A stretch of DNA of 64,000 nt from Isoetes taiwanensis. Its lineage: Eukaryota > Streptophyta > Lycopodiopsida > Isoetales > Isoetaceae. Under the pieces are notes generated by a model, which worked only from the letters and a program-made list of their open reading frames with translations, was not told the origin of the DNA and made no database searches. Shown piece by piece: positions 26,991-59,316 of this stretch. Made by a program: the position numbers and the translations under genes. Position 1 is the stretch's first letter. Every line of letters starts with the position of its first letter. The stretch lies in the NCBI GenBank assembly GCA_021234155.1, contig JAJEKV010000021.1, positions 14,073,760-14,137,759 on the forward strand, given 5' to 3'.

Positions 26991-27314
26991 GTTTTACTCA
27001 TGCCCTGCCAGTTGGTTTTTTAATGAGCCTTGCTTCTCCATTCCTCCTTGCGGTCTTCTTCTGTAATCACCTGCAGATGCAAAAGTGCAGATGCAAAAGT
27101 GCTAGAAGTGTTTTATCATTTTGCCTACTGCAAAATTATTTCGGCAGCCCATGCTCATTTCTGATGCCTTACCCCATCGTTGATGGGCAACCCCCACTTA
27201 TAGGGTGCTCATCTATTTAGTGGGGACAGTTTTGATGAGCACAAGCATTTCTGTGCAAAGAATTTAAAATAAAAAGTAAAGTTCCTACCATATTTTTTGC
27301 TTTTCCCATTCTAA

Positions 27315-29470: not shown

Positions 29471-29651
29471 TTGAAGTAGATATAAACAATATAGCAAAAA
29501 CTTATAGACAAGTCTGCATTGAACTATATAAACAATATAGCAAAAGCATTCTTAAATTAACATAAGATAAAGATGGTACATGAAAAGTGTAGGATTCCTT
29601 GGCCTAAATAAATGACAATCAGGCCAATAATCATAAATGTCTCAGGCTTAA

Positions 29652-30360: not shown

Positions 30361-30581
30361 TTCTTTGCCAAATCAATATTTAATACGTTGGAACGTCCCG
30401 AATACCTACACACAAGGAATTACTACATGAATAAATAGATGAAGATGAAAATGAAAAATAGGTTGAATGTGGAAACCTTTCTGTATCAACAGCAGGATTC
30501 TCTGACCTAACAGAATCAACTGGTAATCCTACAGTGAATGCAACAAAAGAAAATCAATAATATTCAATGTTTTAAGCAACA

Positions 30582-32224
30582 CTAAGTTGTGGCCTTCTTG
30601 GCCAGCAATTTCCACACTGACTTTCCAGGATTATTAAGGGCATCAATCACTTGTTGAAGATCAGGCTCACCTGAAACTTGAGGGCCTGATTCTGCATTTT
30701 CTTGTAAGAACACTTCGATAGGTGTGGTGTCATGATTGAGACTGCTTCCTGCATCTTTAGCATAGCTACTTCTTGTTCTCTTTCTTGTAGCCCTGAACAA
30801 CTTCTTTGCTATCCTCCGCCTTACCCCTCTTTGTTCTTACGCCCTTTCCTTTTGGCAAATATTCACCCAAGTTGCCCTCATCCGGATGGAATTACTCCCT
30901 CAACTTCCTTAGGTGCTTGAGGTGTGTACAATTGGGTCTGTTGTTTTCCCAAAGCTGGTCTTTGTGTTTACTGACTTGTTCTATAGCTTCTTGGACGGTT
31001 TCTTGGGTGGTGGTGGTGGTTCTGGTTGTTGCATTCAAATCAGTCACAATTGATGTACTCCTATAGGACTTTGAAGGTGTAGTGCATCTTCAAATGGCAC
31101 CATTGTCCTTCTTTGAACCCTGTAGAGTGAGACCTCAATTGCAGGACGGATTAACACATCCTTTTTTGGTATACTATTTGAAGCACCTGCAAGATGGCCA
31201 AAACCTAGCTCGTCAAATACACCCTCTGGCACCTTTCCAGGGCAACCATGAATACATTGTCCTCCTCTCAACAATGAACAACAAGCTATATGATACTCAT
31301 GTTGGCAATTGATTGCTAAACTTAACCTCGTAAGCTTTAGTGAATTCGGACCACATCTTTGAACATGTATAAAATGGATCTTGCACTAACAACTTATCTC
31401 GTATAATAGTAGAGATGCTAAATGTTGCAGGAGTACCCATTTTCAGCTTCCACAAATTGTTTATGTAGAAATGCAGAACTCTCTGTTCTTCTTCGAGAAC
31501 TTTTAACTCCTCCTCAAGTTTGATTTTACATTTGACCCGCTCATTAACGGATGTAGGGTTCATTGCTTTTTGTACCTTGTTCACGTGCCAAGTTTCCATC
31601 CGGACACGATCTGCTCCAAATCTTTAATTTCGCCTCCAACTCGCAGTTTAGATTAAGCTTGAACTCCTCTGTTTTGTAGCCAAATCATTTGTGGCTTTGT
31701 CTTAAAGCTGTTCAAACCTCTTCCAACATCATTTTTACGTAATTCGGAGGCCTTCTCATTGCCTTTCAGCTCACTTCCCTCTTGCTTCCAGATTCTTTGT
31801 GATAAGTAAAACTGATTTTCCAATCTCATGTCTTTGCATTCTCTTAAGATTTTTATGTTTTCATCACATGCACCGATCTCATTTGATCCGGTGCCACCTT
31901 TGGCTTTGCCTTCATTTGAGTTTTCGAACATGTGCTACAACATACGCCTCTGTTTTTACTTGTCTATTGTTGAGGTATCTTTGACATTACCCACGACAAA
32001 TGCAGCCCAGTTTACTTTGTGTTCCTCAGGTGCAACTATTGATCTAGTGCAATTTTCAAACGCAAAAGCAAGGGCCAGTTGCTTTCTTACTTCTTTGTCC
32101 AAACAGAATCCCAATCTCGATCCGTGACATTATTTTCCAACCAAGTTTCTTTTTCGTGGGGCTTCACCCCGAATTACCTGAACCTCGATCTTTGTGAAAA
32201 TCATCAGCTCCATGCCTCCATCAT
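30582..32224 (-). pseudogene. coiled-coil/RING-like gene, broken copy (IR2 left arm)
   Basis: Mirror copy of 39,976-41,627. The start ATGATG is at about 32,219-32,224. The frame is interrupted several times: ORF pieces at 31,653-31,931, 31,297-31,599, 31,044-31,274 and 30,582-30,800. The RING-like cysteine cluster is disrupted by indels around 31,330-31,370. Confidence 0.8.
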
Positions 32225-32370
32225 CAACGGTGAGACACCGATCCGAGTTTTGGCGCCCGGGGAAAAAAGGAGGGAGAAGGGTGTGGCGGGCTTCGACGTC
32301 CGCGAGTTTCAGCACTTAAAGTGCTTAAACGCTTCGCCAAAAGTTGTACCCCACTAGCGATTTTACACCC

Positions 32371-38700: not shown

Positions 38701-39830
38701 CCACTAATTGACTTACAGAAATCAAATTTTTCACTATAGAGGGCACACAAAGCACTTTTTCAATTTCCACAGGATTCCCTTGTAAATCAAACAGTTTCAA
38801 CATGCCTCCTGCCTTCACTTCTTTTATGCTGCCATCTCCCAGCCGAATATTTCTTGTCTTTTGCTCCACATCCGATCTTGTGAGTAAATCTGAACCCTTT
38901 ATGATTGTTCTTTCAGCTCTCGAATCTACAACAAAAGACACCTTAGATTTTTGTGCTTTACTTATATAATTAGAGAAAGCATGTGTTACCTCCTCTTCTG
39001 AATCTTCATCCTCACATTCCACTATTGCAACATTTGTACTTGCTGCCTTGGCACCTCTGCCTCTCCCTTTATTCCAATTATTAGGCCTGCCCCTGCCTCT
39101 AGCTCTGCCCCTGCCACTGTCCCTTGGACTTGGGCATTTGGAAGCCATATGTCCCACTCCACCACATGTATAACAAGTTCTTGAGTTTTGAACTCCTTTT
39201 GGGCAATTATATTTCAAATGCCCCACTTCCCACAACCAAAACATGGGCCAATCTGCCTAACCCTATCATTATAAGCTTTCCCTTTTTTGACCATCAAAAC
39301 CTCTGCAGATTCTTCCTCATCATCATTGTCATTCTCAATTACAGACTTTTGCTCTATTTCTGTTCTTGCAATCTGCTCAGCTTCTTCCGTAGTTCTGGCC
39401 ACAGTTCTTATTAATGTAGACAATGTCCCATAGTTAGCAAACATCTTAGATATAGCCAAAATTTGATGACTTACAGACATGACAACTCCAGCTGCTTCTA
39501 AATCTGCACAAAGTGAGTCAAATCTGTGGAACATAATGGTCAAATCAGACTTGTCATCAAATTTCAATTTTCTGATTTCCTTTTCCAAGACATCAATTTG
39601 TGATGAGCTTTTTGTCTGGTATGTTTTGATCATGTATTTCCATGCATCCCTGGGGCTTAGATCCCTTAGCTTAAGCATAATACTAGGTGCAACTTTGCAC
39701 ATGATGATTGCCTTAGCCTGACTTATTTTCACATCATCACTTGCTCTATCACTACTGATACAAACCTCTTTGGATTTTGCAGTAGACTCTCTAGATTTTG
39801 GTGTTGAAGTCTCTTCTACTGCTGAGCTAC
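35770..39830 (-). pseudogene. copia gag-pol, most complete copy
   Basis: Read from high to low coordinates. Gag (39,732 down to 39,214) ends in the first zinc knuckle, with the same frameshift as the inverted copy. The second frame (39,244-38,372) has the second knuckle, the protease motif altered to DSR, and the integrase zinc site. Integrase core pieces follow (38,342-37,707). RT lies at 37,676-36,876 and ends at the same TGA (SPRA-stop) as the first copy. YVDD, RNase H and the C-terminus run to 35,770, with one more frameshift near 36,110. At 39,830 the gag is cut by the big transposon. Its missing N-terminus is at 59,156-59,316, in the same orientation. Confidence 0.92.
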
Positions 39831-39975
39831 GGGTGTAAAATCGCTAGTGGGGTACAACTTTTGGCGAAGTGTTTAAGCACTTTAAGTGCTGAAACTCGCG
39901 GGCGTCGAAGCCCGCCACACCCTTCTCCCTCCTTTTCCCCTGGGCGCAAAAACTCAGATCAGTGTCTCACTGTTG

Positions 39976-41627
39976 ATGATGGAGGCATGGAGCGCGGATG
40001 ATTTTTACAGCATCAGAGGTCTGTGCAATTCGGGGGTGAAGCCCCACGAGAAAGAAACTTGGTTGGAAAATAATGTCACGGATCGAGATTGGGATTCTGT
40101 TTGGACAAAGAAGTAAGAAAGCAACTGGCCCTTGCTTTTGCGTTTGAAAATTGCACTAGATCAATAGTTGCACCTGAGGAACACAAAGTAAACTGGGCTG
40201 CATTTGCTGTGCAATGTCAAAGATACCTCAACAATAGACAAGTAAAAACAGAGGCAGATGTTGTAGCACATGTTCGGAAAACTGAAATGAAGGCAAAGCC
40301 AAAGGTGGCAGCTGGATCAAATGAGATCAGTGCATGTGATGAAAACATAAAAATCTTAGAGAATGCAGTACATGAGATTGGAAAATCAGTTTTACTTATC
40401 ACAAAGAATCTGGAAGCAGTAGGAAGTGAGCTGAAAGGCAATGAGAAGGCCTCTGAATTACAGAAAATGATGTTGGAAGAGGCTGAGAACAGTTTAAGAC
40501 AGGCCACAAATGATTTGGCTACAAAACAGGAGGAGTTCAAGCTTAATCTAAACTGCGAGTTGGAGGCAGAAATTAAAGATTTGGAGCGGTGTCGGATGGA
40601 AACTTGGCACAGGAACAAGGTACAAAAAGCAATGAACCCTACATCTGTTAATGAGCAGGTCAAATGTAAAATCAAACTTGAGGAGGAGTTAAAAGTTCTC
40701 GAAGAAGAACAGAGAGTTCTGCATTTCTACATAAACAATTTGTGGAAGCTGAAAATGGGTACTCCTGCAACATTTAGCATCTCTACTATTATACGAGATA
40801 AGTTGTTAGTGCAAGATCCATTTTATACATGTTCAGCATGTGGTCTGGAATTCACTAAAGCTTACAGGTTAAGTTTAGCACTGAATTGCCAACATGAGTA
40901 TCATATAGCTTGTTGTTCATTGTTGAGAGGAGGACAATGTATTCATGGTTGCCCTGGAAAGGTGCCAGAGGGTGTATTTGACGAGCTAGGTTTTGGCCAT
41001 CTTGCAGGTGCTTCAAATAGTACACCAAAAAAGGATGTGTTAATCCGTCCTGCAATTGAGGTCTCACCCTACAGGGTTCAAAGAAGGACAATGGTGCCAT
41101 TTGAAGATGCACTACACCTTCAAAGTCCTATAGGAGTACAGTCAATTGTGACTGATTTGAATGCAACAGCAGAACCACCACCACCAGTCCAAGAAACTGT
41201 CCAAGAAGCTATAGAACAAGCTGTAAACACAGCACCACTTGTAAACACAGCACCAGTTGTGGAAAAAACAACAGATCCAATTGTACACACTGAAGCACCT
41301 AAGGAAGTTGAGGGAGTAATTCCATCGGATGAGGGCAACTTGGGTGAATATTTGCCAAAAGGAAAGGGCAGAAGAACAAAGAGGGGTAAGCTGGATGATA
41401 GCAAAGAAGTTGTTCAGGCTACAAGAAAGAGAACAAGAAGTAGCTATGCTAAAGATGCAGGAAGCAGTCTCAATCATGACACCACACCTATCGAAGTGTG
41501 TTCTGAAGAAAATGCAGAATCAGGCCCTCAAGTTTCAGGTGAGCCTGATCTTCAACAAGTGATTGATGCCCTTAATAATCCTGGAAAGTCAGTGTGGAAA
41601 TTGCTGGCCAAGAAGGCCACAACTTAG
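39976..41627 (+). CDS. coiled-coil / RING-like zinc protein of the big transposon (one frameshift)
   Basis: The main frame (to 41,627) is open for about 500 codons. The natural start is probably ATGATG at 39,976, because the preceding frame encodes a sensible stretch (WSADDFYSIRGLCNSGVKPH) that meets the main frame through a small frameshift near 40,112. The same shift is in the mirror copy. After a helical N-terminal half with coiled coil (residues ~90-240), a cysteine/histidine cluster reads CSACGLEF...LNCQHEYHIACC...CIHGCPG. This has the C-x2-C...C-x-H-x3-H-x2-C...C-x3-C spacing of a RING-like finger. The C-terminal third is acidic/proline-rich with a basic patch (KGKGRRTKRGK, RKRTRSS), probably nuclear. 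RING-type proteins can act as ubiquitin ligases or binding modules; its role in transposition is unknown. The HAD gene follows 230 bp downstream on the same strand. Confidence 0.7.
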
Positions 41628-41854
41628 TGTTGCTTAAAACATTGAATATTATTGATTTTCTTTTGTTGCATTTGCTGTAGGATTACCAGTTGATTCTGTT
41701 AGGTCAGAGAATCCTGCTGTTGATACAGAAAGGTTTCCACATTCAACCTATTTTTCATTTTCATCTTCATCTATTTATTCATGTAGTAATTCCTGTTGTG
41801 TAGGTATTCGGGGCGCCCAACGCGTACTAAATATTGATTGATTTGGCAAACAAA

Positions 41855-42562
41855 AGATAAACTCATTGTCTTGGATTTAAATGGTGTGTTGGTAAAAACA
41901 TTTGGTGCAAATGAACACATACGCTTGGAATCAGGATTGACAATGACATACACTAGCAGAAAGAAAGTGATATTCGCACTGTAAGCGTTGTTCTTCTTGA
42001 AGACTTTGTTCTGAAGTGTTGTGTTGGTATATGGTCATCAATGCAACTCTCTAATGTGGAAGATGTTTGCAAGTACTATGTCCATTTGAGGGGGCAATTT
42101 CTATTTGTATGGGGACAGGAAAAATGTATGAAGACCAGTTTTCACCACCCTAACAAACCTGGCTGTCCAGTCATGATGAAGCCACTTGGGAAAATATATG
42201 AGCCATACCCAAGATTCAAAGGTAAGACTTTGCTTCTTGATGATTCATTATACAAGTCTTACCTTAGCGGAGTCCACGGAAACTTACGCTAGTACGCATT
42301 CAAGATGGATGTCTATGATGAAGTGCTAACAAGATTACTCACCCCAAAGATAGAAGAAATACTCTGAGGCCAAGATCGAGGAAAAAATGAAGTTACTGGT
42401 GAAGAACACACACAGATACAAGCCCTGGCCTATGACAGATAGAAAGATTATGAAGCTATGCTTGGAAAGACTTTCTGGAAAACAATTGCAGTTCTGTAGG
42501 TTTGTGAATGAGGAATTGGAGAAGGTTTATGGTGATGAACTTTGTCATTCTCCATTACTGTG
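41855..42562 (+). pseudogene. HAD/FCP1-like gene, broken copy (IR2 right arm)
   Basis: Motif I is intact (KLIVLDLNGVLVKTF, about 41,855). Small indels then break the frame near 41,980 and 42,275-42,370. The middle (PGCPVMMKPLGKIYEPYPRF, LLLDDSLYKSYLS) and the C-terminus ending at the TGA at 42,562 are recognisable. An upstream open stretch (41,680-41,830, after a TGTAG acceptor-like site) could be an extra exon. The intact counterpart is at 29,652-30,360. Confidence 0.75.
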
Positions 42563-42746
42563 ATTAAGCCTGAGACATTTATGATTATTGGCCTGATTGT
42601 CATTTATTTAGGCCAAGGAATCCTACACTTTTCATGTACCATCTTTATCTTATGTTAATTTAAGAATGCTTTTGCTATATTGTTTATATAGTTCAATGCA
42701 GACTTGTCTATAAGTTTTTGCTATATTGTTTATATCTACTTCAATG

Positions 42747-43025
42747 CTGACTGCAAGGATGCTTAAAACTTACCAAGTGCTTGGTATGAGTCTTAATGGC
42801 AGATACTGCTTACTGTCATGCAGTGACAGTTACTAAGTATGTAGTTGCTTAACGCGAGCAGAAGTGTTAATGTCATCAAGTGCTTATTGTCATGCAGTTA
42901 AGGTGCAGTGCTTACTGTTATGCTATATAACTGTTTAAAGCTAGTTGTTTATTGCATGTGTGCTCGTGTGTTCCAATGCTTACTCACAAGCACTGCTGAA
43001 ACTAATTAAAGTGCTTAGTGTTTGA
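42747..43025. repeat. cluster of AAGCA(C/T/G) motifs, right copy
   Basis: Mirror of 29,191-29,470, with self-complementary stretches such as TACTGTCATGCAGTGACAGT. It ends where the IR2 arm ends. Confidence 0.6.
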
Positions 43026-43381
43026 GCTAGAGCACTGTTACATTCAAGCAGAATATGGACTGTACAAGAATTCAATGTTTTGCCACCTGCATGGATAATA
43101 GAAGTAAGAACATCAAATGAATTCATTCTTTACATAATGGAAAAAACAAAATATGATGCTGAAAAGAAGTAGATGAGACAAAAAACTTCATATATTTGAT
43201 AGACGAAAAGAACATTTGATAGAGAAAGAAAATGACAAACAAAGAACAAAAAACAAAGAACGAAAAGAACATTTGATAGAGAAAGTGTTAGAGACAAAAA
43301 ACTTTTTATATTAACAAAATATTTTACAAAAAAAAGGCCTTCAGGCCAGTGTCTTCAGGGGGGTGTCTTCAGGGGGTGTCT

Positions 43382-43699
43382 TCAGGGGCTTTCTGGCTCA
43401 CTCCACACATTCTCCTCCAATTCCCGCCTCCTCTGCCTCTTGGTGGGGCGCTCTTCGTAACAGCTCTCGAAAACCAGCTGTTTTTCTTCTTCTTCATCTG
43501 CCTCTTCCTCTTCCTCTTCCTCTTCATCCTCCTCTTCCTCAGAATTCTCCTCCTCTTCTTCTTCTTCAGAATTCTCCACTTCCTGCTCGACTTCTGTAAA
43601 CAAAAAAATCATCAATGTTAGAACAAAAGAAAAACAAAACAAAAAAAAATTGCAAAACAAAATAATACCTTCTTCTTCCTCTCGGTCTTGATTATGCAT
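43382..43699 (-). CDS. small acidic spliced protein of the big transposon (80 aa)
   Basis: Two exons: 43,699-43,669 (31 nt, from an ATG with an in-frame stop just upstream) and 43,593-43,382 (212 nt). A 75-bp intron with GTATT donor and TTTACAG acceptor separates them. The joined frame is exactly 81 codons including TGA. The protein is almost a pure glutamate run (EEEEEEENSEEEEDEEEEE) followed by a basic patch KRQRRRELEEN and WSEPESP at the end. A protein like this would be nuclear and could bind histones or a basic partner; that is inference only. There is no family assignment. The unspliced reading inserts a hydrophobic stretch from the intron. It lies between the motif cluster and the Helitron, transcribed toward the HAD gene. 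Confidence 0.55.
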   Translation of the reverse strand: MHNQDREEEEGIILFCNFFLFCFSFVLTLMIFLFTEVEQEVENSEEEEEEENSEEEEDEEEEEEEEADEEEEKQLVFESCYEERPTKRQRRRELEENVWSEPESP

Positions 43700-44229
43700 T
43701 TGCGAGAATCACGGGCCGAACCGGCTCGAAAAAAGTAGGCGTTCTTGTATGCGGCGGGCGGCGTTCGCATCTTGGGCACTGCTTAAGCACATACTCTGGT
43801 GCTTGATTTCCGCTGCATGCAGAGGCCATTGCAAAGGAGTTTGGGCAAGATGCCGTTGCAGAGGCGTAAGAAGAGGATTTGGGCGGAAGCGTGAGGGCGT
43901 AAGAAGAGCTTAAATCCTATGATTAGGGGCCTAGTGCTTAAATCCTATGCTTAGGCGCGTCAGTGTACGAAAAACCTCACACGCGCCAGAACAATTAATT
44001 CGTAACCAGGCTTAAATATTTCGTATGACCATTGGAATTGACACATGTCACATCGAGGAAATGCCTTGACAATATAATTTTGCCAAGAATGTTGGGATAG
44101 TGATGGTACCAAAATAAATAATTGAATGTTATTCCAATGTCACAAATGTACATTCTTAAACAACAATTCAATCTTCATTTCGAAGTACGTGTCCACCATG
44201 CACACCACCCTTGTGCATCCTCACTATTA
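43700..44229. other. unannotated interior of the big transposon
   Basis: Mixed-composition DNA with short ORFs only. The 43,900-43,960 part repeats 'cttaaatcctatgattagg' twice, in the style of the AAGCA motif region. No gene seen. Confidence 0.4.
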
Positions 44230-46574
44230 TCTATATATAATAATAATGGCGTTTTATGATAGTTTGTGCGCATTTTTGGCCATTGGATTGAATAGATGGT
44301 CGAGATGCGTTTTCTTTTTTTCTATGAGCAGTTGGGCCTCCGGATGTGGTGCGTTCCTTCCCTTTTCCAATGGCGGCTGGCTCTTCCACTTCTTCTTTCC
44401 TTCATACGGAACATTACGAAACATTCATATTGTTTTTTGTTTTGGCAAAAAAGGAGGAGCCGGATTCTTTAAATCATCTTTAAATCATGATGCATTGGAT
44501 TTGCATCATGTGGCATCGCCAGACAATCGTATTTCCTCTATGGCGAGAAGAGAAGCGCATCCCAAGCAAGCCCCGGATATCTTCTTTTTAAGGTAATAGA
44601 AATGTTTTTCTTCCTTTCCATTTTATGGCTTCAAATGTCTCTCGATTCATTTCGTAAGTTGAAGTATGTGTTACTTTTGTAAGCAACCCGCTTAGGGTTT
44701 GGATTTTGTGGTTGTGTTGATCGGCGATGGCGGATGCGAGTTGAAATTTAGCTTAAAAGGCCCGACCATGAAATCCACAAGTCCGCTTTTCACACATCTT
44801 TTGAGGCTCTTCGGGATACATGTCTTTGGGTGGCGGAGAATAGATTCACCTCTAATCAATGCATGCCCGGACATGCAATCCACTGGGAAGTCGGGTTTGC
44901 ATGGGATTACATGCAAGTTGTAGTTTTGGATATATACAAATAGGTCTAGACCCCGAATTCAAGGACCGATTGATTTGCAAAAGGCAACGAAATCTTTTTG
45001 TGACTCACATTACAGACATGATCAGTAAATTGCTTGAGGCCCTATAGCCCGATTCCGCAAGCATCTTGGGTGATGTTAGATAGCGGGGAAAGGTTGAATT
45101 CAATTGCTTGCAAAAACCCGACTTGCAAGACTTTCTCTTACAAAAGCGTTGATTGAATTTGATTGCAGGCCCATTACACTCAAATGCTTTCTCACACGAT
45201 TGGATCAACATCCTTTGTCGGTATAGATTTGTGGGGTTGGCAACCGCCAAGAAATCGTTTAGAAGAACGTTGTGAGCCTGTGTTAAGGTTTGTCACAACA
45301 ACTATATCGCATTGTTGTGCACTTTGCTTAAATAGGTTTTAGAATTCAAGCCTCGTGCTTTTGCTTTTTCCAAATCATGAAAATGCACTTTATTCATCTT
45401 TTCTATATTTGCTTGCATAGTTAATTGTTTTGAAGGGTTGTGTCGATTGTTACGGCATGTTCTACTTTTCTCAACCCATTTGTTTTTCGCTTGTTAGCTT
45501 GATCTTTTTCCTTTTTAGCATTGTGATTGCCTTGAGCTCGTGTTTGCTCTTTGTGTATCTAAGAGTTTGTCTTCCATTAGTTGAGCGCAAACTATGAGGA
45601 TCTCCTCTCAACAAATCAGCATTTTTACGCAACCTATTCCTCTAGCTGTAAGTTGAAATCCATAGTCTTGCTTTGTGATTGGCTGAGTTATCAAGGCACG
45701 CACTTCATTTTTTTCTGAGAAAATGGTCGACTTCCTTCGATGATGTATGGGAACATTTTTCTTTCCTACTATTATCTTCATGTTCTCCTAGTGCCCTTAT
45801 TTTTTTTTGGGTCCGAGATGGAGGGCTTTGGCATCTTGAAACTTGGCCATGATCATTTATCGGGTTTTATGCCTTGAACTCTAATGGGGAGGGCTAACTT
45901 GCCAATCTTCTTGGCTTTCTCATATTTATAGAACTATTCATGTTATGTACCTAAAAGAATGGGTCACAAGCAAATTCATTTCACTTTGTAGGCTCAAAAA
46001 CCACAGAGGTTCTGCATTAGGCCATATTACATATAAATGCAATTTGGCTATGAAGGAACACTGATTTGAACTCTCATTTTCGGAAGCACTCTCTCTTTGT
46101 GTACCACTATTCTCTTGTTGATAAAGTAGTCCGGGTAATTGTTACATGTATCTCTGCATTTTCTGTCTCGCCTTCAAATCAGCTATGGAAATACAATCTC
46201 GAGATCGGCATTTGGGTAATGGAGTAGAATATGATGCGGTTGGTGGATCTGAAGAACAAAGACAAATTTGAGAACCAACAGAGACAAGCAGAAGCGGAAT
46301 TTGGGAGATTGTTGGTTGGTAAGGTTTCAAATTCAAGTATATGGGGTTCTTAGGCACAGCAGAGCCAAGTTCTTATTTGTTCTTCTTTGTGGGTTTAAGC
46401 ATAATTTTGTTGGTTCGCATAATTTTGTTGGTTCCGCTTTGAAAGAAGGAGGGACAATGTGACATGCAACGACCCAAGGTTTAGAAAGAAGAAAGTACCA
46501 TATCCAGATCTGAATTTTAAAGATGTGAAAAACTTGAGGACAATGGCGGGCATTCTTTGGTCAAAGCTGAAAAT

Positions 46575-47150
46575 TGGGTTGTCATTTCGTGAATGAGGCA
46601 CCAACAGATCTTTATCAAGGCCATGGTTGCAAACATGCATGAGTGGCAGTCTGTGCCGGCAATTGGGGAGATAAAAGCCCCAAAAGGGGCGAAGAAAGGA
46701 GCCATCTTCCTCTCTCTTGAACAACAGGCAACACTTGGTTATAGAATCCAGAAGTTCATGCCATATAATTCATATGTGAGAAAGAGCATAGGTTATCATT
46801 TTCTATTCAACATGGTGCTAAGAGAATTTATGATGCAGATAGTAGATCCTCTTTAATGTACACCGACCTTGGCAAGATGTTTGATTTGAATTTGTCCAAA
46901 TCCAAGCCCCTGTCAAAAAGTAATGAGTCAATCCATTCATACACTATGGCCAACGCGTCTTTGTGTGGCCCCGAGGACTTTCTTGACTTACGTGCCAAAG
47001 ATATATGCAGAGATATTTTATGATCAAGTGCCCGGAGGTACTCATTTCATACAACAAGGGCTTATCAATGGTCTCCCGGATAGTGACTCAAGATATTTTA
47101 TCATACCCATGAGGCTTGGGGGTACTATCTTTTTATGCTAGGTCTTAAGC
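46575..47150 (+). pseudogene. captured gene fragment in Helitron, family unknown (a)
   Basis: Coding-like frames include FIKAMVANMHEWQSVPAIGE (about 46,610) and MFDLNLSKSKPLSKSNE...GPEDFLDLRAKDICRDI (46,870-47,020). A shifted frame continues with DQVPGGTHFIQQGLINGLPD and YFIIPMRLGG. The style is that of a globular protein broken by frameshifts and possibly introns. I do not recognise the family. Confidence 0.4.
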
Positions 47151-47584
47151 TTATGGCATAATGGACTCTAAAGAACAAAGTTTAAGCATAGCAATAGGCA
47201 AGCATAGATGTTCTTAATTTGCCTCGCATTTGTTCTTAAAGTGAATAGTCCTTAACTAATATGTAACATACATCCTGTTAGTTCTCTACAACATTTCAGA
47301 GGTCTAACTTATCTTCATATGCAAAGACTTTGGAAGTTGAATTCAATGTGACTGATGTTTTGTTCCTTTTTGTTTTTATATTACGAATCACTACATATCC
47401 GTGGATGACTTGTTTGCTTTCTGTTATCTGCAGATGGAGGCATCTTGGAAAACTGTAATGTTCAATGATTACGCGAAGAGTGGTATATAAAACCGGGTTC
47501 AAAAGTCTGATTCAAAATGCTTTTGTCGAAATTACGAGAAAAGTTCAAAACTACATTACATAAGGAACATGGGGAGGAACGGTT

Positions 47585-47898
47585 TGTGTTCAAGACATCG
47601 ATATATTTTTGATTCCACAACACCGAATTGGAGACTTTCTTGACTTGGCATCAGTTGCTTTCAAGGCTAAGGTTAAGCATGAGCTTGCAATACCACGATT
47701 TTTGATGGGAAAGTGTTGAAGAATTTGACAAAGAAGCATTATCTAAAGCTCTTTACATAAATGATGCTTCAAGAATGGAGCCTTCTACTCTTTACTCAGT
47801 ATAGTGTACCCTTGGAAAGGAAAGATTGAGGCTGAGTTCTTTCATATTATTAAGTCTATGGCCATGGGAGACCCTCTTCTGTTGACAGTTTTGTAGTC
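47585..47898 (+). pseudogene. captured gene fragment in Helitron, family unknown (b)
   Basis: A coding-like stretch reads DIDIFLIPQHRIGDFLDLAS, then VAFKAKVKHELAIPRFLMGK. After frame breaks come NDASRMEPSTLYS-like codons and YPWKGKIEAEFFHIIKSMAM...DPLLLTVL. It looks like a real ancient protein, probably of the same parent gene as the fragment at 46.6-47.15 kb, but I cannot name it. Confidence 0.4.
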
Positions 47899-49383
47899 TT
47901 GACCTTGTGGGTTTCTGCAATGGGGTGACATTCAATTATTTATAGGGAAGAACTAGAGTATATAACACGAGTGAATGTCGGCAACGATGCTTGTATTTGT
48001 ATATAGGCAGGTGCAACAGTTATTGAACATAGGCTCGACGCATAGTCGGGCTTGGCATAATTTCAAGCTTTTACATCTCTACGATCATAGTTTTTGTTTT
48101 TTTTTTTATGTTCGCATTTTAAGTCCGCCTTTTTTGATGTTCGCATTTTAAGTCCGCAATCTTTATTAGTATCTGAATACATGCCCGACGAAAAGCCCAG
48201 CAACGCTGGGCACTTTTTCTAGTTAATATATATACAAATGTGTGCTTACGTGCTTAGGTGCTGGAACAACAAATCACTTGCAAAGAATTACATCAATTTG
48301 GTTAAGTGTCAAAGAATTACAATGTTATTGGGAGACTGGCCATAATTTTTTCATGGGTCTCCTGTGAAATTTTGTACATGTCTGTGCCTTCTATTTTGTC
48401 CATATCAATTTTAGGATATCTTACCACATGGCTGTGCACGGAGGCTTCGGGTTGTTTAGTGAGCAACATGTACTTGAAATTACCCAAGAATTGATAATAC
48501 AATCCACTTAAGATAACCTCATACACTCCAAATTTTTGCCCCCATCCATCTTTGTATGAATCTTCAAGTGTGCATTTGGGTTCTGTGCACTTGAGGATGT
48601 AGAAGTCCACACCCTCTGAATTGTCTACCTCGGCATTCCTTTGCAAAATTGTCACCTACCTCTACCAAATTATCGATCCATCCATTGGCTTGTTCAAGAG
48701 TTTCCTTTTTCTTCTCGACTCGGTTTTAAGTCGGTTACCTCCCACTTTCCAAATCTACTGTATTGATGCAGAGTCCCAATTCTAATCCATGCAAAACAAA
48801 GAGAAACATGACAGAGGCATCTATGAGCAAGCCTGTTTGGTCTACTCCTCGCGGCAGTCCGATCTGATGAATCTTCTTTGTGCCTTTAAGTGTTTCAATT
48901 TCATATTCTTCCATGCTTGCCTATGGCAAAGAAGTTCAATTTCCCAAAAATATCTTTTGATCTCATCTGTTTCATCAACCTGGAAGATCTGCTGAAATAT
49001 GTACACGTAAATTTTACAATATCTTTAGCATGCCTCAGTATCACACCATTGGGTTTGAGTTGTTCCTTACTTAGCGACCTTTTTGATAACAAAGACTGCA
49101 CCATCATGTTCACCTTTACCATGAGCAGTGGCAAAGTAGTTCCACACTATTTCCTTGTCATTCATTGTGAAGTACCTGCCTAAGAAAAAAAAAGGTTTTC
49201 CTGACTTGAATTGTGAGCAGCCATCACTCCAAACCCAATGCTTCTCATACTCTATTTCCTGTTCCTTAAGCCATGCAACATGCTTTTGTAGGCAGTGTTC
49301 CACAAATAATGAGTCATGCACTTTATCATCAGAAATATAAAAGTGAGTCTCTTTTATGATCTTCCTACCGTTGTTGAGTCTAT

Positions 49384-50371
49384 TCTTAGGCAAGGTCCTA
49401 GACACAACATATATCAGCCAAGTGAAGTGGTGTTCTCATTGAGCTTTGAAAAATCATTGAGTACAAATTGATTTCCCCACTAGGAGTAAGAAGCTTTCTC
49501 AAAAATATTGATAAAATGCTCCGAAACTAGACAATTATCGAGAGCATCTAAACAATAGGTTATAGAAAACATTGAAGTTCAAACACCTCCAGCGACGAAG
49601 CTCCATCATTTCACAAAGAGAGACGGCTTATCCGCAATAAATATGCCGCACCAAAATGATACTCGTCCTGGGCCAATGGAAAAGACTCCAGAGTAACCTG
49701 CAAAGAAAAAAGTAAACAGAGAATGACACATTAAGGAGTTAGGTGAATTAATCAAGAGTGTGCATCAGTGCACTATCTTATCAAGAATATAGTAAGGCTC
49801 GGAGGCCACCACGACCACGCTGTAGAAGAAGAAATAACGACCGACCAATCGGGGAACGGATCCATGGAGACACTGCCATGGGAAACATCCGACTAGTACT
49901 GCCTCGGAGGCTACAGTGCCACGCCGAGAAACATAGAAAAATAAACCACGGAATAATCGAGAAAACCACCCAAATAGTATTGTCTCAGAGACTGCCCCAC
50001 ATCGAGGACAGCGACGTATAAACCATAAAAATAAATAACCTGATGAATGGGAAAAATTGTCCTACTCAGTGATAAACAATGAATAAAGAAAAGCAATCAG
50101 ACCACTACATATAAAGTCAACGAAAAGAAAAAATAAAATAATGGCATAACAAGAAATCTTAGCCCCACCAAATCAGGGTGGGGTGGGATAGGGAAACTAG
50201 AAGAGATAGGAAAGAATAGAACAGACTAGAGGATTCATCTCAAGAGAACGCCGATAAGAGAATAGTGAAAAAAAGAGGAGAATATATAGGATATACGATC
50301 CAAAGATAGCAACGTCCCTTGCCAAAGAATGGTGGTTCTATTGCGAATGCTTCGCAATAGAACCATGACAT
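49384..50371 (+). mobile_element. Helentron-like (Helitron2-type) non-autonomous element 1 (988 bp)
   Basis: Inserted at T|T within ATT of the transposase gene. The 5' end ATTCTTAGGCAAGG (49,382-49,395) recurs inverted at 50,317-50,330 with one mismatch. It is followed at once by a 14-bp-stem hairpin with TGC loop (50,334-50,364) and then only 8 nt to the 3' end. Unequal subterminal inverted repeats, a 3' hairpin and T|T insertion without duplication are the Helentron/Helitron2 pattern. There is no ORF. It shares 38 bp at the 5' end and 179 bp at the 3' end with element 2. Confidence 0.75.
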
Positions 50372-50372
50372 T
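50194..50372. repeat. 179-bp direct repeat (3' end of element 1)
   Basis: Same as 56,969-57,147 at a constant offset of 6,775 with hardly a mismatch. It contains the inner inverted repeat and the hairpin. Confidence 0.9.
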
Positions 50373-53320
50373 CTTAGGCAAGGTCCTAGACACAACATAT
50401 ATCAGCCGATAGAAGAGGAACCAAACTCAATCATCAACTTGAATACAGACAACACTAGGACATGGGATAGACTTGATACAATGAATGGATGAGACACATG
50501 TTGTAAAGGAAACCAACAAATAAAACAAACATACGACAAAGGAAGACAGAGGAAGCATGAGAGACAAAACTAACACAAATGGAGTAAACTTGAAACTTGG
50601 AGGCAAAAAGGTGCTGATGTAATGGACTACGAAATAAATTGATGAATGGGTCACAAAAAGACAAAAGAAGGCAGAAGCATTAACTTCCAGATAAATGAAC
50701 CATACAAAATGAAAACGAGAATGGGGTCAGAAGAACCCAATCAAACTCAAGAACGAAATTCAGAGCAAAAAGAGATGAAATTGAAAAGAACACTCAAGAA
50801 TTAATGGAACTAAGAATTGAAAATGCATCCATTCTAAAGAGCATGTAAAAAACAATCAGACTACACAACAAACAAACAAACAAACCAACTAAGACTACGA
50901 GATCAACAACCTTGAAAGATCAACGGGATAAAGCAAATATCAGCTAAAGAACTTGAAGCACAGAACTAAAGAAACTACTGGAATATGTACAACAAAGGTG
51001 AAAGAAAGAAGGAAAGAAATGGGACAAGAGAACTGAAGTAACTACAACAAGGAGCAATTGGTTAAAAGAAACGAAAAGAAAGAAAAAGGGAAGAAACCAC
51101 ACAAAATAAGAGGATGATCTGCAACAAAGAAGTAGCAACAATGGAGTAAAAAAGGAAGCCTAAGGGACAAAATAAAACAATACAATACCAACAAAAGTGT
51201 TGGAAACCATGATGTAATTGGGTTAAAAGAATAACTAGACACTAGAGTACCAAATACTAAGAGATTTGCAAAAATACTAGATACCAAGAGGGTGTCAAAA
51301 CCGAAGGAGGAATGGGACAAACAAGACAGCTAGAGCAAATTGGGTGAAATCTAATTAAAAGTGTAATAAAGCAAAGGAGCATAAAAACAAGAGGCGCAAA
51401 AAGAGTAAAGGCGCAAATAAATACCCAGTAGGCAAACTCATCCAAACGCAAATGGTAAGGAGAACCTAACCAGCACAAACAATAAATTATGCAATTTGGA
51501 ATAAAAAGGGGCTAAGGAGCTAAAGGACAATCATGTATAACGCCTGGAAACATAAAAAACATGCGATGAATGGAAACAAGGGCACAAAAGGAGCTAGAGG
51601 GACTAACCTAGGGCAAATAACAGAAAGGGATAACATATCTATGTGAAGTATAAGTCAAGATGCAGCAAAGGACTAAATAAATTACCAGGACCATCGCATA
51701 CAACGAGATCAAAAGAACTTATGAGAAACATAGAGCCAATTATAGGTAAAAGGCCAATTGGAAAATGGTTTACAATGTCAATTGGGTGAAAAGAAACTAA
51801 CCAAGCAAATGCCTAAAACAAAGCCTGATTCGTTGCACAACTAGCACTGAAACTAGAAATCTACGGAATAACCATAAAGGGGTATAAAAAACAGTGGAGC
51901 AAAATGGATATAAAATCCATGAAATATCACAAAAATTTGCCCGATAAATGCTGGTGGAAACTTCAAATGAACATAAAGATGTATAATGGTGGGAACAGCA
52001 TACAAGATATCCCAAGCAAGAATTACATGTTCAAATGAAAGAAAGAGCTATAAAAGAAACAACGCTAAGAATGGAACTAATGCCCATACACCTCTGGAGA
52101 AGGAGAATGTATCATATGAAACCATCCGGGTACGAAAAGAAATTATGTAAAAAGCCTAAGACACAACAAAAACCATGCAGTACAAACATCATCTACCAGA
52201 TGCATATGACCAAAATATGCATCAAACATAATATTGTGTAGAACATTGAAACCAAAAGAAACTACATGCATGAAACTAAATAGAAATCTCAAAAATTGAC
52301 GAGATGAAATGTTTAATGTGAACATCCTCCACCAAATATACAGTTAACTATCCTAACACTCCTTTCCTTAAGGTCTAGATAGACTATCACCATCACAATC
52401 ATCTAAACGACAACATAGATTGTAAGAGATTAGGTCCCAGTCATGGAAGACATGAGTATGATCAATCTCAATATTACTTATCAACGGATAAGGACAATCA
52501 TAGGAGTATCTGTGGCCAAATCTAGACGAACCAACAATTGACCATAAATATAGAACATCCCATTTACTAAAAATATAGCAAAAAATGATGGGATCGAGAT
52601 CAAAACCCCATTTAGATATGTGCAACACCACCTAAGAAGGCATCTAAGCAGTCTCCTAGCACGTTATTGATTAGTGACCTCAATGAAAAGTACAAACTCT
52701 AGGAAAATGTAGAAATAGTAATCTATGGGATGATCTAGCCAATAAGATTAAAACCGAAAACACCCAAACGTCAACATTAGATGTATCCACGAATATGACA
52801 AGGTTTGAAAATGCAAATAACCAAAGACCTAAGGGAACTAAATGATAAATTTTAGAAGACCACCTATGTAAGATATAATATCACCTCCAAATATACGTAA
52901 GGATAATGCGTGCCGAAAAACTCTCCCTATGAGCGCTGCTAGTGTAAAGTGGCACAAAGCAAACCTCCTTTCAGTAGTAGATGGTCAAAGTGTCCCATGT
53001 ACACCAATGGCAACTTATCGAGGAAAAAAGGGGAAAAAATATTGTTGCACTAATATATGCACGTGAAGGTTTCAAGAACGTGATTGAAATCAAGAAATAA
53101 GTGTATTCCACTCTTAGGTTGCAAAACAAAAACAAAAATCCGAATAGCCGTAAATGGTAAAAGAGGCAAAATCGACTAGCAAAGAAAGAATACCTTTTGA
53201 GTCTCACCATCAATGATGATTCTTGCATATCAAGAATGAGCAGCACTTGGTGGACAAAATCCTTTGAACAAAATCCTTCATCCAGTGCCTCTCTTGTAAA
53301 TATGTGTTTGGCAAATGATC

Positions 53321-53726
53321 TTTGCGATCCTCATGGATAGAAGACAGAACCATACGCACTAAGAGAGAACTGAACCTACTCATTTGTTATTATATGGTTC
53401 TGATATGAGAAAGCACACAAACTTATTCTAATGAAAATGTGTATGCATGCATGCATGAAAATGATGATTACCTGGTTAAGGAATTCCTCAAAAAATGAAA
53501 TTCAACATGGGCGTATCGAATGCATAGAATTCTTTGCAATCCTTATGAATAGAAGACAAGAAACCATGTGTGCACTAAGAGAGAACTCTACCTATCTATT
53601 TGCCATGATATAGTTCCACCACAAAGCAAAAGCATTCTTACGAGTATGAGAGAGCAAATGAATTATGTCAATGAAATCATGCATGCATGCATAAACATGA
53701 TGATTAGCGGGTCAGCGAATTCCTCA
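53321..53726. repeat. imperfect tandem repeat, two units of about 210 bp
   Basis: Units start TTTGCGATCCTCATGGATAG (53,321) and TTTGCAATCCTTATGAATAG (53,533). Both run through an 'actaagagagaact' block and an ATGCATGCATGCAT block to GAATTCCTCAA. Diverged, so fairly old. Confidence 0.8.
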
Positions 53727-56700
53727 ATCCGACATAAAGAATAAAGAAGTGAAGCATAAAATAGGAACAAGACAGAACTATGGATGCATAAGAATAAAAC
53801 CTATACTCTTGGGCCACACGGTCCAATGGTGCGAACAAGACACTCACCAACCAAGTATCTAGAATAAACAAGTCAATACTAAACCAAATAACATGGAAAT
53901 TGTGTCGCGTTTTGTCTGACTATGAATTACATGCTGCCACATGGCATGTCCCTACAATCTGGGATGAAAAGTAGGAAACCTATGCAGTGCATAGAAAAAA
54001 TTACATGTTGTAACCTGTTGCCAAAAATAGATACGGAATTACATTTGTACTGTAAGAATTTGTCTATATTGAGTGCAAATGGTTCAGATTTATTTAGAGC
54101 TTTGGCAGGAGGAAGAAGGAATCACGAAATTAGAGAACCTATGTTTTTACTACAGCAAATATCCAGAGACCATGTCTACTAGAGACCATGTCTACTGCCT
54201 AACTGGATCTAGAAGGGAGAAGTAAATAAATGGTCGAAGATCATCATGATAGCCACGAAAATGCCTTGTTTTAGGCGCTTATGCCATTGCTGCAGTGATG
54301 CACTAGAGATATGCATGTTAAAATACTTGGGTTATGGTCATGCCATATTCTTAATGTTGCCATGTGGACCAAATGAAATAACATGATCAATTCAAATGGG
54401 AACGTTTTATCAAAAAGGGGATCTTCTGGAAAAGCATACAAGCAGCAGAGGTAAGATATACATATGTGAAAATCAAATAAGGAAGCAACACATATGTATG
54501 CAGTACTGGAATGATGTAGTTAGCTTTCTGGATCTGAAGTGCTTTGGTCTGCAACAGAGTAACCAGAACATCAAAAACAGAAATTGAGTCTGTTGGTGGA
54601 GCAATTGTGAGAAGACTATTCTGTTGATGAAACAATTACGGATCATAGGAGTTTAACTAACAGGATTTATATGGTTTGGTGATGAATCAGGCAAGAGAAG
54701 CTAGAGAAGATGAAGCCTGAAGCAATTGTGGAGGTCATGCAATTTCCTGCAGGCTGAATAGTCGGTGCAAAGATTTGCTGATTTGGGGCTACAAATTTGA
54801 TACCAGATTCTGCTTCTGTCCAGGGATTGTGTTTATAAAATCTGAGACTTGATTTGTGGATTCCTGTGAAGAGGCTGATGTGCGCACTGAAGATAAGCAA
54901 GGAGAAAAAAGAAATCTGGTATTCTGGGTTCAAATCCACGGCTCACAACATTTATTTTATAACAATGCAAACAAAGAAACCATAAGCACAAGATACAAGA
55001 AAAATAGAGGATACAAAAAAGATGAATAGAGTCCGATAAGTTTGGGGTTTATTACAGCTGGCAGAGGCATTCTCTTTACAGTCAAGCTTAAAGCAAGAAC
55101 GCCTCCAGAGCCACAAGAATGCATGCTTTGACTGCCAAAATTCACGCCAAACGATGCTTGCTTCATGGCCGAAAACTTCGTTAATCCCTATACGAAAACT
55201 TACTAATGGCAAATTACGAACCCAATCCATGTGGAATTTGAACAGTCTGGCAAACTATGGGGCTGGAGCAGGGAAAGAAGCACTCTTGGCAATCGAAAAA
55301 GATGAGAACGGATAGCCTGTCTAAAATCAGGGACATATGAAATGCTTTAAAGCCTTAATATGAAGCTCAAAGGCAGAAACTAGAAAAGGTTATGAAGCCG
55401 TAGGATGTCAATCCTAATGCAAAAACCTATTTATTAAGACCCGAAAGATGCACCTGCTGCTGCAGCCACAGAAATAAGTAGAAGCCAGAAGAAAGAAGCC
55501 ATGTCCAATAAAGAAAGTAACACTGCACATCTGTGTAGTAGTTACCACTGCTGGGATAGTGGGCAACAAGCACTGAACTACAGAGGATTGATAGAAAAAG
55601 GCTATACAACAGAACATTCAGAATACATAGATTGCCAAACATAGATTGGCTGGGTGATCTGTTAATACTTCCAGAATTTCAAAGGCAAAGATTCGGATAG
55701 AGCTGCTTGAACAGTATATTGAAGAAACTGTTAGCACTACATCAAACATACTCCTTGGATAAGAATTTATAACTATTATATGCTGAAGCCTGCTGCAACA
55801 AGACCATCATTACAGGTTAACCACATCGAAATTAAAAGCCGTTATAGATTCTTGCTTGATAAGGTAAACATGGGCTGATTGTGATGTCAAAGGCAACTGT
55901 TTGAAATGGAAATGGAAAAACATAACAAGAAACTTACAGCAAAAGAATATGGGAACCTTTATCCATCTGAGCAACAAATTTCCGATGTAGACATAATGTT
56001 CAACCAAGAACCGTTATATGAAGACCTGTCAAAAAATATGCTTGATAGGGCAAGCAAGACTGAATACATACAAACAAATCATCCCTGCAGAATCAACCGA
56101 AGCTACAAAATCTAGTCTGTAAGATAGAGAAAGTAGCATGATACCTTTGGCTAGATTCGAGCTCCATACAAAGCAGCACAAGACATCTTTGGTTAAGCTA
56201 AGTCTAAGTAATCTACAATGGACGCACAGAAAAATGAGCTGGCAAAATCCAACAAGTTACCTCTGGCTGAGATATTGCAGATCAGAACCTTAATCAGGTG
56301 TCAAATAGCATCTGAGCCATTTTCGAAAATGGCAGCCGGACCAGAGTAGGACTGCCGTTCAAGAAATCTTGCTGCCAAATAGCTCCATCGAGCAAATCCG
56401 AAACAGAGGACCCATCCAAAAATGATCAAACCCTTGCCGTTTGCCTAAACCCTTGTCGTTGCCTAAACCTTTGCCGTTTGCCTTCCCAGATGAGAATGCT
56501 AAAGCCATGCAAGATTCGTAAAAAGCATCATAGCACCGCCAACAGCACATCGACAGAAGGGCGCATCCCAAAAAACGATCCAGGAAAAGAATCGACAAGG
56601 CAAAACATGGCCCAACATGCCCAAAAGTACAACACAAGCATCGAAGCACCAAGGATCCAGGATTTCAAAGGATCAAACAAACCTGGAAACAAGCCTAGAA

Positions 56701-56968
56701 ACGGATTATGCCATTAAACCAAAAATCAAAGCAAAAAACCCAATCTCAGCAATCATGAATCGATCCCATCCAAACTAAACAGTTCAACAAACCATAGAAC
56801 AACCAGAACTGCATGCAACAAGAAAAGCAAAGCGGCCTTGAGGCATCGCCCGAATATTAACCTTGCCCTGAAATAATTCTAGGAGTAATAGATGAAAGTA
56901 GCTAAGGTAGGTAGAACTCTAAGAAGAAGCTAGAAGGAATCTAATAGAGCAGGGAAGCTAGCTCAAGA

Positions 56969-57147
56969 AAACTAGAAGAGATAGGAAAGAATAGAACAGA
57001 CTAGAGGATTCAGCTCAAGAGAACGCCGATAAGAGAATAGTGAAAAAAAGAGGAGAATATATAGGATATACGATCCAAAGATAGCAACGTCCCTTGCCAA
57101 AGAATGGTGGTTCTATTGCGAATGCTTCGCAATAGAACCATGACATT
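56969..57147. repeat. 179-bp direct repeat (3' end of element 2)
   Basis: Partner of 50,194-50,372; see the two Helentron-like elements. Confidence 0.9.
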
Positions 57148-58198
57148 CCTGATCTGCTCCAATCTTCTGTTCTTTTTTTTCTTCTTTGGACAGTCTTCTT
57201 CTGTCTGCACAGGAACAGGAATATCAGCACTTTTGTCATGTCTATATGTTATGTGAACAAGTATAGAAACTTGGTCTGTATGCCAGTGCATTGACTGGGG
57301 CTCATTCTGGATCTTGATGCTGTAATTTTCTGCAAAGTCAATAACAGATACAATTGTATCTTCTGGAAATGATGACACACACTGTTTAAACTGATTGGCC
57401 TGCCAATGTGCTATGTAATTGTGTGGAACAAAATCTGATATTACCTTCTTCACATCCTCTTGAAACTCTTTGGGAGTTCTCTCCTTCTGTACTAATCTCA
57501 AGACAGGTTTGTACCTCAAAGCCTTTCTTGGATCCCTGAATTCTCTGTCCTGGTCCACAGGTTGCTTTTCAAATGTCTTCCAAGTAACTAGTAATGAACC
57601 CGTGCCATCCATTTCCTGTGGACATTTTCTAATTCTATCCAACCCACATTTTTTACACGCCAACATCAAGCAGTTATGATCAAACCACTCCTCATCATCA
57701 CCTTTGCTGCAGACCACTTGTCTCCATAAATCACTGGTGCACTTGATTGTATGCTCCTTGGCTGCACATTCTGGGCCAGGGCCACAAATCTCACAGTGGC
57801 AGTTGCAATTGTCATGAACTCCACCCGATTTTCTCAGGCTGTTCAATCCCTGCATGATGTATTCAAATTTCAAGTGGTAGATGCAACAACATGTATGCCT
57901 CTCATGCATCCTCCTTACAAAACTCGGTTTCAACCTCTCAAAAGTCTGCAATGCAATTTTGATATGAGGATTCTCCTCTCTAACCTGAGGTAGAATTGCA
58001 ACTGCAGGGAAATCGTGTGAATGCCAAATAAATGCTACATATAATGAACCCTACAATATAGGATGAATACTTACTTGGCTGACTTCAAGAAGGTGAATTG
58101 GATGTTCCATCTTTATTCCTGTCTCTGATACATACCTCCTCACGTCTTTCTTGTATGGAGAAACTCTTGTATTTTCTGTCCAGAACTTGATAACAGCT

Positions 58199-58262
58199 TC
58201 TCTATTTAGACCGATTGGTCTCCGCGGACGATAAAAATACCTTCCTTCCTTCCTTCCTTCTA
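58199..58262 (+). mobile_element. LINE 3'-end remnant with (TTCC)n tail
   Basis: TTAGACCGATTGGTCTCCGC, then GGACGATAAAAATA and a (TTCC)4 tail. This is a 60-bp dead-on-arrival LINE insertion in the transposase gene. Confidence 0.8.
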
Positions 58263-59155
58263 TTGTAATCTAACATGCTATCCATCCGCTTCCTCCTCCT
58301 GAACATTGACCAAGGTCCTTCCCCTTTGTTAGCTTGCACCCTTCTTTGAAAAGCATTTGAAATTGTTTTTCTGGGGATCTTTGAAAACAATCGGCCACTT
58401 TTGATTCAATGGCTTGACACCATTTGTACCTGCTGCTGCCATTATCAGGGTGGACTTCCTTGCACGAAGCATGTCATGATTCCTCTCATACTTATGTTCT
58501 TGCATTGTTTCCTTCAAATTCTTCACCATTTGCTCGGCCATAGTAACCTGCTTAGATTTCTTTATAGAAGCAATTCGTAAATCCCTTGCCCTCCAAAGAA
58601 GACTGTCAAGGATACGGCCTTTGTCATTGTCATCAACATTTGTACTAATTTGGTTGAATACTTCATAAATTTCTCCTGAAATTTCTCTTATTCTGCGGTC
58701 ACTCAGTCTCAATTTCTTATTCTTCTTTGAAGGCGAATCTTTAGAAGGGGAATTCTTCTTCATTGCTACCTTCTTTGCGTACAATCTCTGCCTCTGATCA
58801 AAGTGAACGGGGAGAGGAATTGGGTTTCATCTATCTCGGATTTCTGTGTATTGCAAAATTGGTGAGGGCAAATTGTTGAATTTTGGTTCAGGCAATTCTT
58901 GGAAACAATTAGTCCCTCCATTTTGCTTGAATTCAAGATGGGTTAGCCCGCCATCCACGAATATGGCGGGCTACAGGCATTCATGTTTCCGGCACCAAAC
59001 AAGCTCATGATGCTCTCAGCCTGTCATTTGACGGGCGCGCACCCTACATGTCAATTGATCAATCATGTACGTCGTGTTTAAAACACGCCGATTTTAAGCA
59101 CTTGTAAGCGGCGTCCGGACGGTGATTTCTGCTACCCAGTACCGATTTTGTACCC

Positions 59156-59316
59156 CTACTTGCTTCATCATTAATGCCAACACTTGGCTCAACAATGCTC
59201 CACAATCCCTCAAACTGTAGCACTTCTTTAATTCTCTCCTTCCATATCTGAAAGCCACCAACTCCCTGGAACACTTCAACAGAACTTAAAAGGGTAGCTC
59301 CAAAACGTGTGGACAT
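59156..59316 (-). pseudogene. copia gag N-terminus, separated from the rest by the big transposon
   Basis: From ATG at 59,316 (22 nt after the primer site region) the frame shows the Ty1-copia gag start (GGFQIWKERIKEVLQFEGLW...IVEPS). It stops matching at the CTAC duplication (59,156-59,159), where the transposon end begins. Its continuation in the same frame is at 39,830 downward. Confidence 0.88.

Follow-up and report, generated by a model that had tools for sequence, protein, structure and literature searches.

Between positions 39,831 and 59,155 of a 64,000-nucleotide stretch of Isoetes taiwanensis DNA (assembly GCA_021234155.1, contig JAJEKV010000021.1, positions 14,073,760 to 14,137,759 of the forward strand; this whole stretch is referred to as the window) lies an insert that interrupts a copia gag frame. 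A preliminary description of the sequence took it for a 19-kb DNA transposon carrying four genes and not assignable to a named superfamily. What kind of element was inserted, and what does it encode? Our reading, to which we assign a probability of about 0.7, is that the insert is a dead copy, carrying nested insertions, of a class II cut-and-paste Isoetes family of ~7.6 kb, which is Sola-like and has a conserved RING/FCP1-like partner beside its transposase. Its assignment to a transposon family is based on GGGTG ends that occur in pairs, hundreds of copies in the genome, 4-bp duplications that vary in sequence, paralogous empty sites, and a pair of convergent coding units shared with diverged relatives.

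Boundaries of the element and its copies in the host genome

The terminal inverted repeats matched at 17 of 21 positions without gaps at offset 0; any other offset between -6 and +6 gave at most 9 matching positions. When the outer ~400 bp were aligned locally without constraint, the score was 23, whereas 200 shuffles averaged 18.6 and reached 36; the end-to-end likeness of the window element, taken alone, is no better than chance. The case for the ends was based on the recurrence of the end patterns across the genome, and not on this likeness by itself. The left-end pattern (28 bases, up to two mismatches) and right-end pattern (34 bases) were found at 363 and 285 places in the host genome, respectively, and both reversed-pattern controls at 0. 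Among the matches listed (~100 of 285), the right end of the window copy, with GTACCC in place of the GCACCC of the others, was the sole place without mismatch. Using the first 200 bp of the element as the query, the best 40 of 454 candidates all covered the full 200 bp with 96-100% identity.

When 106 left ends and 77 right ends, a subset of all ends, were used as the input for pairing, at least 56 of the left ends had a right end in the same orientation within 40 kb. Thirty-one of these paired copies were 7.4-7.9 kb in length, 18 were longer (with many different lengths), and 7 were shorter; the standard element length is about 7.6 kb. Among 27 pairs, the flanks carried an exact 4-bp duplication in 20, a match at three of four positions in 5, and no match in 2 (C952:21108471 and L043). 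With the window included, 21 of 28 copies had exact duplications, all 21 of which differed, and 54 of their 84 bases were A or T.

In the window, CTAC flanks the insert on both sides, and removal of the insert together with one CTAC made the copia gag frame (258 amino acids) continuous. A query joined from the two flanks gave 37 matches crossing the junction (best 97%) among the 40 scored (best 40 of 192 candidates), the remaining three being half-sites within the window. These empty sites are related copia copies (paralogues), not alleles. The window copy is a genuine DNA transposon: the boundaries, the terminal repeats, the 4-bp duplication, and the restored copia frame of the preliminary description were all confirmed, and the full copies with different duplications and the empty sites that it had named as a check were found. 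In a comparison of five elements (three of the window family and two relatives, C1056 and C1018), AAGCACT/AAGTGCT were the only 7-mers shared by the left and right terminal 150 bp of every element; AAGCACTT was located 37-44 bp from the left end in each, and the distance of GTCCGGAC from the right end was 43 bp without exception.

Nested insertions and number of coding units

Alignment with seven standard copies placed the element proper at 39831-44229, 48223-49385, and 57149-59155 of the window. The additional 11.8 kb of the 19.3-kb copy consists of two insertions with their own boundaries. The first is a Helitron with textbook ends (TC start, GCCCAGC-AAC-GCTGGGC hairpin, and then CTAG), and the second consists of two tandem units of 984 and 6,771 bp, each bounded by ATTC, which have approximately the first 45 and last 176 nucleotides in common, with a 33-nucleotide palindrome near the 3' end. 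A single 19-kb unit was rejected on account of these nested insertions. A composite element of this length mobilising four genes as cargo has in its favour that the ends and the duplication are exact at 19.3 kb, but the lengths of the paired copies, the separate boundaries of the two insertions, and the lack of conservation of the acidic gene make it highly improbable. This last gene, previously placed near 43.4-43.7 kb, corresponds to a variable low-complexity spacer between the convergent units, at which L041, L044, and L045 were unalignable to the window, and nothing was found to support a gene at this place. In place of four genes, the element has two coding units that converge, and the window copy is dead and nested, with a broken transposase. 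The genome was assembled from Nanopore reads, according to the portion of the genome report consulted (PMC8566536), and some frame breaks in the copies may be Nanopore errors. The rbcL-type gene of this genome scored highest against PDB entry 9chz (1088 bits), followed by 4hhh (pea) and 1wdd (rice) with 1060 bits and by 1ir1 (spinach) and 1gk8 (Chlamydomonas) with ~1041 bits, a ranking unlike that of a flowering plant.

The minus-strand transposase

The minus-strand unit probably encodes a DDD (three-Asp) transposase, as judged from the order of its parts: a helix-turn-helix, a Cys cluster, VIDFAENY, WSDGC.QFK, and HGKGxHDGAG, the last three of which contain the candidate catalytic Asp residues. 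The order of these Asp residues is shared by copies of the window family and the relatives C1068, C1056, and C1018, and a 627-amino acid open frame in L069 holds all three. Assignment of RNase-H chemistry rests on this motif order, because no library model matches the transposase significantly. The helix-turn-helix matches of exon 1 were weak, with none above the curated cut-off, and the only transposase-type match listed in Pfam was DDE_5 (E 0.27, for L076), with nothing above the curated cut-off. The hAT, MULE, CACTA, Harbinger, mariner, piggyBac, and KDZ superfamilies all have Pfam transposase models. A PDB sequence search with the transposase profile gave two matches, both with E 0.69. No relative of the transposase was detected by tblastn in the viral and prokaryote collections, in which the peptide patterns searched did not include the three Asp motifs. 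Two matches to a degenerate HGK..CDG motif were obtained in viral contigs, with no related frame seen in either.

The plus-strand RING/FCP1-like unit

The plus-strand unit consists, in order, of an N-terminal domain, a coiled coil, a RING-H2-like finger, a basic linker, and an FCP1-like HAD domain, and longer open frames were found in the relatives C1056 and C1018. The HAD/FCP1-like gene of the preliminary description was confirmed: Pfam NIF matched the merged HAD domain of the window family (E 1.1e-7, 32.2 bits) and, more strongly, that of C1056 (E 4.7e-20, 72.3 bits), with a cut-off of 21.8. A PDB sequence match of the HAD domain to UBLCP1 (E 1.6e-4) covered a stretch that excludes the first motif. 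As to the RING-like coiled-coil gene of the same description, a RING-like identity is plausible from the spacing of the finger, which is that of RING-H2 in C1056 and C1018 and is longer by one residue in the last pair in the window copy; no significant Pfam match was obtained (see below). When the RING and HAD frames of C1056 were joined by a GT-AG intron using a script, no stop-free solution was obtained.

Phosphatases have D-x-D, in which the second Asp plays a catalytic role. The catalytic D-x-D of FCP1-like phosphatases was not found in the element-borne copies read, which had D-x-N instead; C1056, C1018, C1068, and L112 were read without requiring the motif. Among 20 NIF copies chosen across the score range, whether or not element-borne, 13 had D-x-N-G and 7 had D-x-D.

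FCP1-like matches were abundant in the host genome (3,263 unscored first-look candidates, the best 150 of which were scored). Many of the NIF matches read (e.g. L100-L112) had D-x-N-G and fell into several groups (LDMNGVLLKC, LD[IV]NGVLAQT, and LDLNGVLVKT), and these are perhaps other transposon families.

Relatives in the same genome and selection

Matches to the transposase core of the relatives formed subgroups with ~97% down to ~58% identity among those listed (best ~150 of 9,447 candidates), and the core of the window family was 59-63% identical to those of the four relatives compared. Two relatives were complete: C1056 (6,889 bp; ends GGGTGTATATTTGATATTGGTACCCA; TATA/TATA duplication) and C1018 (6,926 bp; ends GGGTGTAAATATGGTAATGCTACCC; ATAA/ATAA duplication), and both kept the 4-bp duplication, GGGTG ends, end motifs, and convergent layout. 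The left end was looked for in C1068 and C1040, and none was found. The right-end pattern of the relatives occurred at 226 places (control 0); of the 39 zero-mismatch right ends among these, 19 lay within 6 kb of a listed transposase with the expected strand, against an expectation of 0.04. When 150 entries from each of the NIF and transposase lists (of 3,263 and 9,447 first-look candidates, respectively) were compared, at least 10 convergent pairs with gaps of 972-3,191 bp were obtained, whereas chance would give ~0.5 pairs within 20 kb, and two further pairs were located at ~17 kb in a different orientation. These results bear out the earlier proposal of a plant DNA transposon with an accessory, in the form of two convergent units that recur in relatives.

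Divergence between families is mostly synonymous. The ratio of nonsynonymous to synonymous substitution rates (dN/dS) of the transposase core was 0.07-0.28 in the six pairs among four relatives, and dS was saturated between the window family and relatives. For the HAD domain, dN and dS were 0.18 and 1.23 between C1068 and C1056, corresponding to proportions of nonsynonymous (pN) and synonymous (pS) differences of 0.16 and 0.61; pN and pS were 0.34 and 0.73 between C1056 and C1018, and 0.34-0.46 and 0.73-0.92 between the window family and relatives. The finger, in the single pair of C1056 and C1018 (60 codons), gave a pN of 0.30 and pS of 0.85. If the FCP1-like/RING unit were a passenger arising from incidental capture of a host gene, the numerous FCP1-like matches in the genome and the decay of recent copies would fit; however, the convergent layout recurs across families with transposase cores of ~60% identity, and the HAD divergence is biased toward synonymous changes (C1068-C1056), and we regard a passenger as improbable.

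Evidence on the other side and a possible mechanism

Several observations weigh against a Sola-like family with a conserved RING/FCP1-like partner. Seven of the 28 copies are without an exact duplication, two of these clearly so. Scans of the transposase with Pfam, NCBIfam, and PHROGs gave no significant model match; L067, the frame of which is otherwise open, is without the first Asp motif; and AlphaFold predictions for two single window sequences (mean pLDDT of 29.7 and 34.4), in which the transposase input ended in 13 residues belonging to a nested insertion, were uninformative on the fold. The RING-like finger had no significant Pfam match, and in PDB that of C1056 was closest to the RING E3 ligases RNF38, RLIM, and RNF13 with E 0.041-0.15, which are suggestive only. 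Of the eight loci scanned, four of which were HAD loci, two (C1056 and C1018) had the finger pattern, and C1068 and C1040 did not. Many of the further D-x-N copies came from a pattern that required N-G, and two of the seven standard copies (L042 and L043) gave none; moreover, D-x-N may have been inherited from the host gene family of origin. Within families, dN/dS of the transposase was near-unconstrained (0.63, L066-L069), and dN and dS of the HAD domain were 0.040 and 0.062 (L081-L082) and 0.024 and 0.046 (C1068-C1040); weak ratios of this kind are as expected of dead or dying copies.

Assuming a Sola-like family with this partner, the DDD transposase would recognise the ends through the candidate subterminal AAGCACTT and GTCCGGAC sites, excise the element, and insert it with a 4-bp stagger. 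More tentatively, the change from D-x-D to D-x-N suggests that the partner may bind a host phosphoprotein, perhaps the RNA polymerase tail, without turnover; it could then ubiquitinate or recruit the bound phosphoprotein, and thereby aid expression, repair, or escape from silencing. A bolder version, which we consider doubtful, is that the element represents a deep undescribed land-plant lineage (a new superfamily or a Sola branch), in which the element could not do without the RING-H2/FCP1-like protein. With its natural acid/base substitution, this protein would trap substrates as an E3-type factor, its targets being host phosphoproteins, for example of the machinery of polymerase II, IV, or V, and would thereby enable transposition or defeat silencing.

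Few plant transposons are known to encode a conserved second protein, and in some of them this protein is important for evading silencing. In the lycophyte examined, an FCP1-like partner has travelled with the transposase through several families, together with a RING-like finger in the window family and two relatives, and some copies have open frames. What a transposon gains from a phosphatase-like domain in which a catalytic residue has changed is now testable, as is whether Sola-type elements of seed-free plants have the same partner.

Features of the window and inverted duplications

The features are listed in Table 1. A second, truncated left half of the element does not represent an independent insertion because the inverted duplication in which it lies (29188-34880 vs 37354-43027) carries the same copia flank, copied together with the left part of the transposon. 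Further inverted duplications were found at 8733-12391 vs 23945-27613 and 16642-18485 vs 20969-22806, with identities of 94.6-98.3% for those of the window. They are either real palindromic rearrangements or long-read assembly fold-backs, which are indistinguishable from the present data.

Table 1. Positions of the element, its parts, and its nested insertions in the window.
Feature	Positions	Strand	Basis or remark
Second, truncated left half of element	29188-32370	-	Within 5.7-kb inverted duplication
CTAC, left target-site duplication copy	39827-39830		Exact 4-bp duplication in 21 of 28 family copies
Left terminal inverted repeat GGGTGTAAAATCGCTAGTGGG	39831-39851	+	Pattern at 363 genome places, control 0
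Subterminal AAGCACTT, left	39875-39882	+	7-mer comparison of five elements
Left coding unit, first part (N-terminal domain, coiled coil, RING-H2-like finger, basic linker)	39976-41627	+	Stops/frameshifts in window copy
RING-H2-like zinc finger	40830-40961	+	Last Cys pair C-x3-C in window, C-x2-C in two relatives
FCP1-like HAD domain, with stops	41859-42503	+	LDLNGVLV 41871-41894, LLLDDSL 42230-42250
Nested insertion 1, Helitron, 3,993 bp	44230-48222	+	TC...hairpin...CTAG between A and T
Transposase, C-terminal part	48317-49385	-	tblastn match with 8 stops
Candidate third catalytic Asp, HGKGEHDG	49100-49123	-	Motif in C-terminal part
Candidate second catalytic Asp, WSDGC	49217-49231	-	Motif in C-terminal part
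Nested insertion 2, 7,759 bp	49386-57144		ATTC at 49382-49385 and 57145-57148
Transposase exon 2, N-terminal part, with Cys cluster (57781-57981)	57149-58001	-	Sequence comparison
Candidate first catalytic Asp, VIDFAENY	57322-57345	-	Motif in exon 2
Transposase intron, GTAAGT...CCCTGCAG, 73 bp	58002-58074	-	Sequence reading; same intron in L066
Transposase exon 1 as far as matching (basic N-terminus, weak helix-turn-helix), frameshifted	58075-58799	-	Translated matches, profile scans
Subterminal AAGCACTT, right	59096-59103	+	7-mer comparison of five elements
Palindrome GTCCGGAC	59113-59120		43 bp from right end in five of five elements compared
Right terminal inverted repeat; GGGTGCAAAATCGGTACTGGG in the family, one base private to the window copy	59135-59155	-	Genome pattern search
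CTAC, right target-site duplication copy	59156-59159		Flank reading

Superfamily placement and comparison with known systems

No helicase, the domain expected of Academ, was matched when parts of the transposase were scanned with Pfam. The target site of Kolobok and Sola3 is TTAA, which was present in none of the 21 exact duplications. Academ carries a RecQ helicase and Sola2 has AWWT target sites, according to the portions consulted of one paper (PMC3627910); a single exact duplication of the 21 (ATAT) fits AWWT. That the element is not assignable to a named superfamily, as initially stated, was not shown: in the consulted part of its description (PMC10741241), Sola has a DDD transposase, 4-bp duplications, a length of 2-9 kb, and very variable termini, and is present in moss and uncommon in flowering plants, and the 4-bp duplications of the window family and both relatives, the ends (which differ between families), the standard length, and the candidate D-D-D all fit. 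The best label is Sola-like rather than Sola, whose published description was the basis of the comparison.

An undescribed superfamily other than Sola, defined by GGGTG ends, 4-bp duplications, a transposase unrelated to those of Sola1, Sola2, and Sola3, and the RING/FCP1-like protein as a hallmark, would account for the failure of library models to match the transposase; however, the profile libraries used are not known to hold Sola models, and a miss was expected. No report of FCP1 combined with a transposon or transposase accessory, or with Sola in plants, was found in the open-access literature searched, and this, together with the near absence of AWWT, also favours a separate superfamily. 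On the other hand, the variability of Sola termini and the annotation of Sola in Physcomitrella, Ceratopteris, and Azolla, as given in the parts consulted of three papers (PMC9033089, PMC6890710, PMC6786969), speak for Sola, and we consider a separate superfamily unlikely.

The partner shares the Pfam NIF match and the PDB match to UBLCP1 with the FCP1/SCP/UBLCP1-type phosphatases, but has Asn in place of their second Asp. Among plant transposons, VANDAL/MULE and Spm have a second protein beside the transposase; the domains of these accessory proteins are not known to correspond to those of the RING/FCP1-like partner. Sola, and Sola1 in particular, has 4-bp duplications, variable ends, size, a (candidate) DDD transposase, and occurrence in seed-free plants in common with the element, whereas a RING/FCP1-like second gene is unmentioned in the portions of the Sola descriptions consulted and 20 of the 21 duplications do not fit the AWWT of Sola2. 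Sola1-1 of Ectocarpus (21.5 kb), in the part consulted of its description (PMC12477816), resembles the element in being large and in having an accessory gene on the strand opposite to the transposase; this accessory contains ParB-like and DNA-methyltransferase domains, in contrast to the RING/FCP1-like partner of the Isoetes element.

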